A DNA stretch of 32,643 bases, from positions 1 to 32,643 of the forward strand of contig JAMPCE010000029.1 of NCBI GenBank assembly GCA_023666335.1, given 5' to 3'. This DNA comes from a bacterium (GTDB taxonomy: Bacteria; Bacillota; Clostridia; Lachnospirales; Lachnospiraceae). The position numbers and the translations under genes were made by a program. This document shows, one piece after another, positions 10,054-16,098 of the stretch; position 1 is the stretch's first letter, and every line of letters starts with the position of its first letter. Below the pieces are notes generated by a model. The model saw only the letters and a program-made list of their open reading frames with translations. It had not been told where the DNA came from and did not search any database.

Positions 10054-10074
10054 TTGGGTACAGGAAATTGTACA
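10029..10074. promoter_or_regulatory. Two-palindrome YefM-YoeB-type operator
   Basis: The first palindrome is perfect: GTACAG-AAAA-CTGTAC (10030-10045). The second is GTACAG-GAAA-TTGTAC (10058-10073), with one mismatched pair. The four hexamers CGTACA, TGTACG, GGTACA and TGTACA are related to TGTACA. Within each palindrome they lie 12 bp apart centre to centre, which is the spacing reported for the Escherichia coli yefM-yoeB operator. The antitoxin, alone or with toxin, is the expected binder. Confidence 0.85.
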
Positions 10075-10095
10075 TCACAACGAGGAGGTGCTTTT

Positions 10096-10362
10096 ATGCT
10101 GGCGGTGAATTATACAAACCTTCGGGATAACATGAAAATGTATATGGATAGAGTGACGGAGGATTATGAGACCATGATCGTTACAAGAAAGGATCATAAA
10201 AATGTCGTCATGATATCTGAGGAAGCCTATAACAATCTTATGGAAAACGTTTATGTGATGGGAAATAAAGAAAATTATGACTGGTTGATGAAAGGTAAGG
10301 CACAGTTGGAGAAGGGACAGTTTGCCGTTCATGAATTGATCGAGGCTGAAGATGATGAATAA
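10096..10362 (+). CDS. yefM: Phd/YefM family antitoxin
   Basis: This 88-residue protein starts MLAVNYTNLRDNMKMYMD, the N-terminal DNA-binding region of YefM antitoxins. The central part contains VTRKDHKNVVMISEEAYNNLMEN, typical of Phd/YefM. The C-terminal half is acidic (residues 60-88) and would wrap around and neutralise the toxin. It should repress its own promoter through the two palindromes upstream. The ATG at 10096 has GAGGAGG at 10082-10088. A frame opening at 10054 starts inside the -10 box and is rejected. It overlaps the toxin gene by 8 bases, as usual for such pairs. Confidence 0.93.
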   Translation: MLAVNYTNLRDNMKMYMDRVTEDYETMIVTRKDHKNVVMISEEAYNNLMENVYVMGNKENYDWLMKGKAQLEKGQFAVHELIEAEDDE

Positions 10363-10618
10363 GGTATTTGCGGACACCGGATGGGAAGATTACCTATACT
10401 GGCAGACAGAAGACAGGAAAACGTTGAAAAAGATCAATCAGTTGATTGGCGATATTGCTCGCAACGGAAACAGCGGGCTGGGTAAGCCGGAACCACTGGG
10501 CGGAAATTTGTCGGGCTTTTGGAGCCGGAGAATCAATGATAAGGATCGCTTGATCTACAGGATCGATGAAAATAATATTTATATTATCGCATGCAGATAT
10601 CATTATGGAGATAAATGA
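10355..10618 (+). CDS. yoeB: YoeB family mRNA interferase toxin
   Basis: This 87-residue toxin is closely YoeB-like. From the ATG at 10355 the catalytic residues fall at Glu46, Arg65, His83 and Tyr84, the same numbers as in E. coli YoeB. The segments WEDYLYWQ, GKPEPLGGNLSGFWSRRI and CRYHYGDK are hallmark. YoeB binds the ribosome A site and cleaves mRNA. An ATG one codon earlier (10352) is equally readable. The ribosome site GAGG (10342-10345) lies inside the antitoxin gene, so translation is coupled. No key residue is missing, so the toxin should be active. Confidence 0.95.
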   Translation: MNKVFADTGWEDYLYWQTEDRKTLKKINQLIGDIARNGNSGLGKPEPLGGNLSGFWSRRINDKDRLIYRIDENNIYIIACRYHYGDK

Positions 10619-11296: not shown

Positions 11297-11569
11297 ATGA
11301 AAAAAACAATTATTACAGTGGTAGGAAAAGATACGGTGGGCATCATCGCAAAAGTCTGCACCTATCTTGCGGACAATCAGATCAATATTCTGGATATCTC
11401 GCAGACCATCGTGCAGGGGTTTTTCAACATGATGATGATCGTGGACATGAACCGGACGGATAAGGATTTCGGACAGGTGGTAGACGAGCTGGCGACGCTG
11501 GGGCAGGAGATCGGTGTGGACATCAAGTGCCAGAAAGAAGAAATTTTCGATCAGATGCACAGAATCTAA
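11297..11569 (+). CDS. ACT domain protein, UPF0237 family
   Basis: This 90-residue protein is a single ACT domain: beta strand [13 protein letters not shown], helix [14 protein letters not shown], and strands [19 protein letters not shown], followed by a second helix. ACT domains bind amino acids or other small ligands and regulate partner proteins. UPF0237 members are consistently next to UPF0210 genes, as here (gap 40 bases), so a functional pair is likely, but the ligand is unknown. The ATG at 11297 has GAGGAGGAG directly upstream. An earlier in-frame start at 11234 lies within the hydrolase gene and is rejected. Confidence 0.93.
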
Positions 11570-11609
11570 CCGTGCGGGTTTGCGGGTTGAAAAGAAAGGA
11601 ATTACGATT

Positions 11610-12974
11610 ATGATAAATCTATTCGAGGTGGCTGAGACCAACGAGATGATTGCGAAAGAAAACCTTGACGTGCGCACCATCACGCTGGGCATCAGCCTTT
11701 TGGATTGTATCGACGGCGAGATCAGAAAAGTCAACGACCGGGTCTACGAAAAAATCACCGCCACCGCCAAGGACCTTGTGAAAGCGGGTGAGGAGATTGA
11801 AAAGGAGTTTGGAATACCGATTGTAAATAAGCGTATTTCTGTAACACCGATAGCGCTTGTGGGCGGCGCGTCCTGCAAGAGCAGCGGGGATTTTGTAACG
11901 CTCGCGAAGACGATGGACCGGGCGGCGCGGGAAGTGGGCGTCAACCTGATCGGCGGTTATTCCGCCCTTGTCTCTAAGGGCATGACGAAAGCGGACGAGA
12001 TGCTGATCCGTTCGATCCCGGAGGCGCTGCATGCCACGGAGCGGGTCTGTAGTTCCGTGAATCTTGCATCTACAAAGACGGGCATCAATATGGATGCGGT
12101 GCGTCTGATGGGCGATATCATCAAGGAGACGGCGTTTGTCAGCAGAGAGCATGACAGCGCAGACTGCATGAAGCTGGTGGTGTTCTGCAATGCGCCGGAC
12201 GACAATCCGTTCATGGCGGGCGCATTCCACGGCGTGACGGAGGCGGACGCTGTGATCAATGTGGGCGTCAGCGGTCCCGGCGTGGTCAAGACTGCCTTGC
12301 AGAAAGTGCGGGGAGAGAACTTTGAAGTGCTCTGCGAGACCATTAAGAAAACTGCCTTTAAGGTGACGAGGGTGGGTCAGTTGGTGGCGCAGGAGGCGTC
12401 CCGGATGCTGGGGATCCCTTTCGGCATTGTCGATCTCTCCCTTGCACCCACGCCGGCGATCGGTGACAGCGTGGCGGATATTCTTTGCGAGATCGGTCTG
12501 GAATATGCGGGTGCGCCGGGAACGACGGCGGCGCTTGCGCTCCTAAACGATCAGGTAAAAAAAGGCGGCGTGATGGCTTCTTCCTATGTGGGAGGCTTAA
12601 GCGGCGCGTTTATTCCGGTCAGCGAGGATCAGGGGATGATTGACGCGGTGGCGGCGGGCGCGCTCACGATCGAGAAACTGGAGGCGATGACTTGCGTATG
12701 CTCCGTGGGGCTCGATATGCTGGCGGTTCCGGGCGATACGCCGAATACGACGATCGCGGGCATCATTGCGGATGAGATGGCGATCGGCATGGTGAACCAG
12801 AAGACCACGGCGGTGCGCATCATTCCGGCGATCGGCAAGGGCGTGGGCGACAAGGTAGAGTTTGGCGGACTGTTCGGCTATGCGCCCGTGATGCCGGTGA
12901 ACGGATTTTCCTGCGAGGCGTTTGTCAACCGCGGGGGGAGGATTCCCGCGCCGATCCATAGCTTTAAAAATTAG
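11610..12974 (+). CDS. UPF0210 (DUF711, PFL-like) family protein
   Basis: This 454-residue protein matches the UPF0210/DUF711 family in length and in segments such as [18 protein letters not shown] (residues 19-36), [47 protein letters not shown] and the C-terminal [14 protein letters not shown]. Structures of the family resemble the pyruvate-formate-lyase barrel without a glycyl radical, and no reaction is established. It is paired with the ACT protein upstream, which may act as its regulator. The ATG at 11610 has AAAGGA nine bases before it. The in-frame extension to 11514 overlaps the ACT gene and is not used. Confidence 0.93.
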
Positions 12975-14215: not shown

Positions 14216-14251
14216 AACACGATTCCTCTCAAAGAGCGGAGGCGTTTGAAA

Positions 14252-15085
14252 TTGAGAAATTTAGTTACTTTATCGAGTCTTGAAAAAGAGGATGTTTTTG
14301 AAATTTTTCGCACAGCAGATGAATTGCAGGAGGGGAGATTTCAAAACTTTTTTCAGGGGAAAAGTATCGTTTTATTCTTTCCCAATACAAGCATAAGGAC
14401 CCGAGTGACATTTGAAAGAGGAATCTATCTGCTTGGCGGACAGCCAATCCTGTTTCCGCTGGAAACGCTGGACAAAAAGGAGAAACTGGAAGATGTTTGC
14501 GGATATTTGAACCTCTGGGCAGATGAAATCATTGTCAGGCATGGCAATATGGATGTGGTCAGGAAACTTGCACAATATTCGGACATCCCTGTCATCAATG
14601 CAATGACAGACAAAAATCATCCCTGTGAGATTCTTTCGGATCTGTATTCTTTATCGAAAATCAGAGCGGATTTTACAAAAGACAAATATCTTTTTTGCGG
14701 CAGATCTGGTAATATTGGACTTTCGTGGAAAGAGGCGGCAGATATTCTGGGATTTGAATTGTCGCAATGCTGTCCGACGGGATATGAAATGGAAAACATA
14801 CCTGTAGTCAGAGATATCAAAGAGGCTGTTAAGGGCAAAGACATTATCTGTACGGACTCATTGCCCGCGGATACACGAGGGGATTTTGAACAATATCAGA
14901 TTGCGAAAGAAATCATGGAGATGGCAAATGATAATGCCATTTTAAACCCCTGCCCGCCATTTTATCGTGGAGAGGAAGTATCAGAAGATGTCATTACTTC
15001 CGATTATTTTGTCGGTTATCAGTTTAAGAGATATTTGTTAGAGGTACAACAGGCTATTATGATCTATTGCTTAAAGAACGAGTGA
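14252..15085 (+). CDS. Divergent aspartate/ornithine transcarbamylase family protein
   Basis: This 277-residue protein keeps the transcarbamylase plan but with altered signatures. The carbamoyl-phosphate loop reads S47-I-R-T-R51 instead of STRTR. HPC at 123-125 is followed by Glu where ornithine and aspartate enzymes have Gln. The second-substrate loop reads N232-P-C-P-P instead of HCLP or HPLP. It is shorter than typical ornithine transcarbamylase (about 310-330), and no SMG loop is seen. It therefore probably uses another amine or amino acid substrate, or is not an active transcarbamylase. TTG at 14252 is chosen as start because GGAGG (14238-14242) lies nine bases upstream. TTG at 14246 would be too close. 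Its base composition is visibly AT-richer than the housekeeping genes around it. Confidence 0.85.
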   Translation: MRNLVTLSSLEKEDVFEIFRTADELQEGRFQNFFQGKSIVLFFPNTSIRTRVTFERGIYLLGGQPILFPLETLDKKEKLEDVCGYLNLWADEIIVRHGNMDVVRKLAQYSDIPVINAMTDKNHPCEILSDLYSLSKIRADFTKDKYLFCGRSGNIGLSWKEAADILGFELSQCCPTGYEMENIPVVRDIKEAVKGKDIICTDSLPADTRGDFEQYQIAKEIMEMANDNAILNPCPPFYRGEEVSEDVITSDYFVGYQFKRYLLEVQQAIMIYCLKNE

Positions 15086-15121: not shown

Positions 15122-15150
15122 TTGATAAAATTTTTGCTTTGATTTATAAT
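15122..15150 (+). promoter_or_regulatory. Strong promoter of the ADP-ribosyltransferase-like gene pair
   Basis: TTGATA (15122-15127), a 17-bp spacer and a perfect TATAAT (15145-15150). Transcription would start near 15157, about 34 nt before the ATG at 15191. This sets the two following genes apart as an independent unit. Confidence 0.8.
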
Positions 15151-15190: not shown

Positions 15191-15745
15191 ATGGAAAAAT
15201 TATATTTGTATCATGGGACCGATTTAAAAAACGCAAAAAAGATTCTCAATGGGAACTTTAAAATAAAGAAAAATGAAGAACATTGGCTTGGTAACGGCGT
15301 GTACTTTTTTGAAGACGATTCACTTGCAAAATGGTGGACAACAAAACCAACAGCTAAGTTTGGAACATCGCAAATTACAACACCGGCGGTTATAGAATGT
15401 CAGATAGAAATTGAGAAACAGGATATTTTGGATTTGAGATGTTTGGAAGATTATAAATTCTTTAGTGAAATATATAAAGATGTTTATTTGAAACAGATGC
15501 TATACAATGGTTCGGAAAAACCATTGGAGATCGCAAAGCTAAGATGTGCATTTTGTGATTTTATGCAGGAAAGATATCAGTATAAAATGATAATTGGCAC
15601 ATTCTATCAACCTAAGCAGCCTTATCTGCCGACAAAATATGGGAAGTACTTTAAGAAATTTAAACTGCCTTATGTGGAGATTCAATATAGCGTTTTTGAT
15701 AAGTCTGTTATTGTAAAAAAGGAAATATTAAAAATGGAGGAATAA
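15191..15745 (+). CDS. Predicted ADP-ribosyltransferase-fold protein, uncharacterised
   Basis: This 184-residue soluble protein is not recognised by name. The opening LYLYHGTD (His8) and the segment HWLGNGVYFFEDDSLAKWW (31-49, Tyr38) match the pattern of H-Y-[EQ] ADP-ribosyltransferases, where His sits in the first strand and Tyr precedes an alanine/tryptophan helix. Glu163 or Gln165 in PYVEIQYSV could be the third residue. IEIEKQDILDLRC (72-84) resembles the mid-domain strand of such proteins. Function as an intracellular toxin, modifier or phage-defence effector is an inference. It has no signal peptide. A basic 96-residue partner starts five bases after the stop. AT-rich codon use (AAA, ATA, TTT) suggests acquisition by transfer. 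The ATG has TAGGA about ten bases upstream. Confidence 0.65.
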   Translation: MEKLYLYHGTDLKNAKKILNGNFKIKKNEEHWLGNGVYFFEDDSLAKWWTTKPTAKFGTSQITTPAVIECQIEIEKQDILDLRCLEDYKFFSEIYKDVYLKQMLYNGSEKPLEIAKLRCAFCDFMQERYQYKMIIGTFYQPKQPYLPTKYGKYFKKFKLPYVEIQYSVFDKSVIVKKEILKMEE

Positions 15746-15750
15746 TATTT

Positions 15751-16041
15751 ATGGCGATCAAACAACCTGTACGAACAATAGAAGACGCTTTTGCTAGTTC
15801 CTGTAAAAAAAATGGTATAGGTGTTCAAAGGAGAAAACATAGTAGAGTAAGTATGCCTATAAGAGATGAAAACGGTGACGTGCTGATTCTTTCAGGAGAT
15901 TTATCCATTAAGAAAAAGGAGCCCATAAAGTCGACTCTCCAAAAAGAGCATACATCAAAAATTTTTTCGCCGCATATATCCGAAGATAAGAAAAAGATCG
16001 GTAAGAAAAAGACCAGAGCAAAGGTACTTGTAAAAGCATAG
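15751..16041 (+). CDS. Small basic protein of unknown function, partner of the ADP-ribosyltransferase-like gene
   Basis: This 96-residue protein is not recognised. The N-terminal part (1-52) looks folded, with VRTIEDAFASSCKKNGIGV and a beta-like PIRDENGDVLILSGDL. The C-terminal half is very rich in lysine (KKKEPIKS, EDKKKIGKKKTRAK) and probably disordered or nucleic-acid binding. GGAGG at 15736-15740 precedes the ATG by ten bases and lies at the end of the previous gene, so the two are co-translated. Gene order and size allow an antitoxin or immunity role, but this is unproven. The AT-rich composition matches its neighbour. A new promoter follows at 16069. Confidence 0.65.
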   Translation: MAIKQPVRTIEDAFASSCKKNGIGVQRRKHSRVSMPIRDENGDVLILSGDLSIKKKEPIKSTLQKEHTSKIFSPHISEDKKKIGKKKTRAKVLVKA

Positions 16042-16068: not shown

Positions 16069-16098
16069 TTGACACAACGGGCACTGACAGACTATAAT
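16069..16098 (+). promoter_or_regulatory. Consensus promoter of the ECF transporter operon
   Basis: A perfect TTGACA (16069-16074), an 18-bp spacer and a perfect TATAAT (16093-16098). It drives the S, A-A' and T genes and probably the epimerase. Confidence 0.88.

Follow-up and report, generated by a model that had tools for sequence, protein, structure and literature searches.

A two-gene ADP-ribosyltransferase unit from the Lachnospiraceae as a probable chaperone-free branch of the CmdTAC family

What could an ADP-ribosyltransferase (ART) and a small lysine-rich protein, encoded by adjacent genes, be doing together in a genome of the Lachnospiraceae? The pair lies in a stretch of 32,643 nucleotides, analysed as a whole and called the window here (contig JAMPCE010000029.1 of assembly GCA_023666335.1). 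A preliminary description, made from the sequence alone, had presented it as an uncharacterised unit with its own promoter, for which a toxin-antitoxin or defence role would fit. The pair and the nearby features that matter to this question are:

10054-10618: YefM-YoeB type II toxin-antitoxin pair (Pfam PhdYeFM_antitox and YoeB_toxin; GC3 0.46/0.52)
14246-15085: carbamoyltransferase-like gene (aspartate/ornithine), 279 aa, GC3 0.41; its same-genus matches, where listed, lie off the contigs with the transporter operon
15122-15150, plus strand: sigma-70-type promoter suggested for the ORF1-ORF2 pair, TTGATA-17-TATAAT, from a consensus scan (11/12 bases)
15191-15745, plus strand: ORF1, ART gene, 184 aa
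15751-16041, plus strand: ORF2, basic partner gene, 96 aa, starting five bases past ORF1

The two reading frames on one strand, the five-base gap and the small basic second protein are exactly as first described. The AT-rich codon use stands in part: GC3 is 0.33 in ORF1 and 0.31 in ORF2, below the 0.56-0.76 of most other window genes measured and the 0.62-0.72 of the transporter operon downstream, but a few nearby genes, namely the carbamoyltransferase-like gene and the YefM-YoeB pair, are low as well. The promoter had been called near-perfect and indeed departs from the consensus at a single base; its assignment to the pair is suggestive only, since the scan of 1351 bases gave 8 promoter-like sites against a mean of 5.2 in shuffled sequence. 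A perfect (12/12) promoter-like site of the same type, TTGACA-18-TATAAT, lies ahead of the transporter operon at 16069-16098, near the point where same-genus similarity starts. A search for a conserved palindrome that could serve autoregulation found weak repeats only.

Chance reading frames can be dismissed for both genes, with 63 database proteins, counting its own record, matching ORF1 at E<=1e-3 and 22 matching ORF2 by profile search (its own included; 3 with the single sequence as query). The preliminary description had proposed to look for the pair in other genomes, and the two genes do occur together: a small ORF follows the ORF1 homologue in all 16 close loci with readable downstream sequence, a count that leaves aside three loci ending before the partner position (L015, L017, L019). 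The layout at these 16 loci, a two-gene operon with a small partner, is that of type II toxin-antitoxin systems.

The enzyme and its relatives

By its predicted fold and its triad, ORF1 is an ADP-ribosyltransferase. Its AF2 model has a pLDDT of 91.1, and Foldseek/VIA structure matches of this model are exotoxin A, PARP, diphtheria toxin and RES-type toxins, which together rule out a non-ART fold; the ART reading thus passed the structural comparison that had been named beforehand as a way in which it could fail. In sequence searches, ORF1 matches Pfam PARP above the cut-off (E 1.1e-6), NCBIfam gives one match far under the cut-off, and the best match in the PDB is PARP16 (E 0.15). The H-Y-[EQ] motif that was first suspected is recovered as H8, Y38 and Q165, invariant over the 56 rows of alignment A1, with E163 in at least 90% of them. 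In a wider ART set, Q165 is found in 52 and E163 in 36 of the 57 rows bearing a letter.

Profile searches relate ORF1 to CmdT, the mRNA-modifying toxin of CmdTAC, so that "uncharacterised" has to be qualified. The best PADLOC family for ORF1 is PD-T4-9_A (CmdT), at E 1.8e-5, in a match spanning residues 5-98, roughly half of the ART, and PD-T4-9_A is also the best family for all seven further two-gene ARTs tested out of 15. The second PADLOC family is PDC-M42, on which no papers were found. PD-T4-9 is identical to CmdTAC (PMC9519451, PMC11618068). The second of these reports describes CmdT as ADP-ribosylating mRNA at GA dinucleotides, CmdA as neutralising CmdT and aiding its folding, for which CmdT needs it, and CmdC as a SecB-like chaperone that guards CmdA until a phage capsid protein draws CmdC off (PMC11618068).

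A fold does not reveal a substrate, and the Pfam PARP match, together with the PARP, diphtheria-toxin and RES-type hits of the structure search, could mean that the target is protein or DNA and not mRNA, as in PARP-, DarT- or ParT/NatT-like enzymes. Such a target would be compatible with a toxin-antitoxin pair, and I consider it somewhat unlikely, as among the defence ARTs the sequence profiles point to CmdT.

Other toxin-antitoxin systems built on an ART show a more limited likeness. RES-Xre, ParST and NatRT also combine an ART-fold toxin with a protein antitoxin and are among the structural matches of ORF1, but they are absent from its PDB sequence matches up to E 10. DarTG resembles the pair as an ART toxin-antitoxin system used against phages, and its antitoxin DarG is a macrodomain protein. 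In contrast to these systems, ORF2 matched no family in PADLOC, Pfam (up to E 10), NCBIfam or PHROGs, and thus neither an HTH nor a macrodomain was detected by Pfam.

The chaperone and the basic partner

In many of the more distant ART relatives, the operon consists of the ART, a small and mostly acidic protein, and a SecB-like chaperone; the third ORF matches Pfam SecB in 8/8 cases tested (7 above the cut-off) and PD-T4-9_C in 4/4. The chaperone-coupled relatives of Firmicutes and satellite phages (L022, L023, L025, L031, L039-L047, L097, L098) belong to the same ART family as ORF1, with the small gene between the ART and the SecB-like gene, and unlike the window pair they have kept the latter. 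Together with 15 further close loci, the window pair makes up a two-gene branch. No SecB-like frame lies near the ART at any of these 16 loci (at L016 within only 411 bases downstream), and the whole-genome search of the window's own genome did not find SecB either. SecB was found in 0/16 two-gene genomes versus 16/16 comparison genomes (two under the curated cut-off), completeness being stated for two of the two-gene genomes (100 and 97) and not for the other 14. The idea of a SecB gene hidden elsewhere in the genome was rejected on these searches. In one comparison genome, Streptococcus sp. 121, SecB lies apart from its two SecB-less ART loci, and other, still more distant ARTs (mostly below 55 bits) have no SecB-like gene nearby.

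The 18 two-gene rows (the 16 loci and two cut ones) fall into one group with support 92/74 when 71 ARTs are placed in a tree; the chaperone-bearing L018 joins this group next (97/84), followed by further chaperone-bearing groups (97/88, 96/82). The tree is midpoint-rooted, and some of its long branches meet. A previous, smaller tree (58 rows) gave 100/94 for the two-gene group with L018 and 42/29 without it. Because the two-gene branch nests among chaperone-bearing lineages, the chaperone was probably lost.

The reading I favour, and hold to be fairly probable, is that the window pair represents a branch of the CmdTAC family without the chaperone and forms a "CmdTA" toxin-antitoxin unit, whose basic partner directly restrains the ART. 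It shares with CmdTAC of E. coli ECOR22 the ART toxin with an H-Y-[E/D/Q] triad, the small partner gene directly downstream, and a partner with a structured N-terminus and an unstructured C-terminus, as reported for CmdA (PMC11618068). It differs in having no SecB-like CmdC in operon or genome and a basic partner without an LAA-type end. The published calling rule places a SecB-like CmdC within two proteins of CmdT (PMC11618068) and does not call the window pair. Since the survey required CmdT and CmdC both, two-gene pairs went uncounted and the chaperone-free branch fell outside it; any calling rule that demands a SecB gene, the published one included, will overlook this branch. The literature searched (open-access, mostly at the level of listings) yielded no description of a natural chaperone-free CmdTA, and the CmdTA-HigC of PMC12671086 is an artificial hybrid, distinct from a natural chaperone-free pair.

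ORF2 has a pI of 10.3, contains 19% Lys and ends with LVKA, which is not of the LAA type recognised by ClpXP. A low-confidence model (pLDDT 68.8) places a helix at 10-20 and strands at 35-38, 44-47 and 53-55, and leaves the Lys-rich tail behind the strands without predicted structure. The partner is basic (pI 9.3-10.5) at 16/16 two-gene loci, unlike the partners of the chaperone-coupled relatives, which are mostly acidic and end with AA/AC/AS or similar. The N-terminal part of ORF2 resembles the partners of mostly chaperone-coupled relatives: with hhalign, this region of the two-gene partners aligns to an alignment of 13 such partners over 40 columns with 46% probability. For eleven of the 13, the locus either has a SecB-like gene or breaks off too early to judge, and two were SecB-less (L027, L030). 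None of 150 column shuffles scored as high, the best reaching 0.83% against a real value of 30% on the same well-filled columns.

A basic partner at every one of the 16 loci would also be expected of a cofactor that binds nucleic acid and recruits the ART to RNA or DNA, the two proteins forming a two-part effector held off by low expression or a host factor. The need of CmdT for CmdA in folding (PMC11618068) fits such a cofactor. Nor is the tail a simple counterpart to an acidic toxin, as ART charge is alike in both groups (median net +0.5 in two-gene versus +1 in chaperone-coupled loci); the idea that the basic partner pairs electrostatically with a more acidic toxin was rejected on the same figures. 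However, ORF2 occupies the operon position of CmdA, its N-terminal profile is similar to that of partners in chaperone-coupled relatives, and none of the other neighbours in the contexts compared recurs in a way that would suit an inhibitor. I regard the cofactor as improbable, and return to ORF2 as the presumed antitoxin.

Both the C-terminus and the charge of the partner differ between loci with and without the chaperone. In the first 41 rows, the partner ends with AA, AC, AS, VA, LC or GA in 23/23 SecB-coupled versus 0/18 SecB-less cases, a pattern composed after viewing these rows, which held two repeated partners (L025/L036, L029/L087). Used unchanged on loci fetched later, the pattern was present in 15/17 SecB-coupled (missing in L110 and L115) and 0/2 SecB-less loci; inclusion of L102, dropped because its downstream ORF looks mis-called (SecB present, no C-terminal pattern), would make this 15/18. 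The later count dropped repeats or near repeats (L037, L064, L099, L126, L124, L122, L125, L128, L120, L087, L034, L036), a broken copy (L026), rows below 50 bits or lacking a partner ORF, ART frames shorter than 140 aa, partners longer than 170 aa and loci truncated ahead of the partner or chaperone, while the near copies L113, L114, L115 and L118 were retained. Over all 60 judged rows, a degron-like C-terminus is seen in 37/39 SecB-coupled versus 0/21 SecB-less cases. Basic partners number 2/39 (L025, L129) versus 17/21, the acidic ones at SecB-less rows being L027, L030, L063 and L077, the last a doubtful partner counted among the SecB-less. For the C-terminus, all three independent contrasts on supported tree branches agree in direction (sign test p 0.25), and as related rows give no more contrasts than these three, the correlation with the chaperone cannot reach significance.

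Among the SecB-less loci, L104, from a genome of the same class, has a basic partner, and its sister in the tree, L063, an acidic one. A small mobilizable Priestia plasmid carries a distant ART with a basic 93-aa partner and no SecB in the stretch read (L096, 1989-2838), possibly an independent chaperone-free case.

A possible mode of action

As a chaperone-free CmdTA, ORF1 would be an ADP-ribosyltransferase toxin and ORF2 the antitoxin that restrains it and probably also helps it fold. The basic tail of ORF2 occupies the place of the degron-like C-terminus of its relatives; the difference is seen in the sequences, and its consequence may be that an ORF2 without a degron needs no chaperone. 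The absence of a degron would explain a pair without CmdC, because CmdA ends with LAA and, when CmdC is missing, is degraded by ClpP, which renders E. coli CmdTA toxic (PMC11618068). A TAC antitoxin without its chaperone-addiction sequence is chaperone-independent (PMC5105189). The two-gene branch can be seen as a natural experiment on chaperone addiction, in which the antitoxin C-terminus differs where the chaperone is gone.

During infection, ORF2 may be lost or displaced, which would free ORF1 to modify nucleic acid by ADP-ribosylation. The most likely target would be mRNA, as for CmdT, and the outcome a halt of translation that aborts the phage. The pair is most likely an abortive-infection toxin-antitoxin system, to judge from sequence, with target and trigger inferred; toxicity, neutralisation, substrate, trigger and phage protection are all putative. 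With CmdC absent and the partner changed, infection sensing must differ from that of CmdTAC, which senses through the chaperone, and the likeliest sensor would be the tail or the turnover of the antitoxin. One specific version, which I put forward as unlikely but worth stating, is that the Lys-rich tail is the sensor of a chaperone-less CmdT-type mRNA ART system, holding on to nucleic acid or to a phage protein until it is pulled off or degraded on infection; if so, the basic partners of L096 and L104 would be further arrivals at the same solution. The chaperone-free branch in any case poses a testable question, namely how an mRNA-directed ART stays off, and is switched on, without a chaperone.

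Distribution and neighbouring genes

Among 77 genomes of the same genus, any relative at E<=1e-3 is present in 9 and the close two-gene type in 2, the window's and G370. Relatives of any kind occur in 26/397 genomes of the family, 18/392 of the order, 10/391 of the class and 16/398 of the phylum, samples that overlap in part and include the window's own genome. The copy in G370, the closest in the genus, has GC3 values of 0.27/0.25 and lies at another site, after a gene that is ClpB-like by eye. The best same-genus matches of the transporter operon start at about window position 16084; the listed matches of the two genes that precede the pair lie on other contigs (of draft assemblies). Distribution and composition give the picture of a mobile cassette.

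A sporadic, AT-rich pair at unrelated chromosomal sites could also be an ordinary addiction or stress toxin-antitoxin pair, maintaining itself without an anti-phage role. The window neighbours would agree with this, being by eye ordinary chromosomal genes, none for defence but YefM-YoeB 5 kb off. However, the closest relative that has been characterised acts against phages, Streptococcus satellite phages carry chaperone-coupled relatives, and one two-gene locus (L014) adjoins defence-like genes; I consider a pure addiction module rather improbable. The defence role offered in the preliminary description draws its support from homology, and the search for defence genes nearby that it had proposed came out divided, with nothing beyond YefM-YoeB in the window and L014 as the one positive case in a neighbour scan of 4/15 further two-gene loci.

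At L014 (2245-4563), the two-gene unit has as neighbours a ThsB-like TIR gene and one of DUF4062 / PDC-S60-like type, together likely a small defence island. A third conserved gene within 6 kb was sought and rejected, as only five groups matched between loci in different contexts, several loci having less than 6 kb on a side. By eye these are ABC-type ATPases, a pair including the window gene 11514-12974, a membrane-protein group of L002/L008/L010, a pair of L008/L014, and the partner.

The Streptococcus satellite phages Javan245 (L097, 4969-6218) and Javan248 (L098, 3004-4279) each carry a chaperone-coupled unit of ART, acidic small protein ending with AA and SecB-like protein, the ART being unannotated in Javan245. 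In the family sample, L056, L057, L060 and L061 have a different, distant group of ARTs followed by a protein of 139-141 aa, similar by eye among them, and no SecB, which looks like another two-gene ART unit; the ORF after the ART of L083 has the same length as these proteins.
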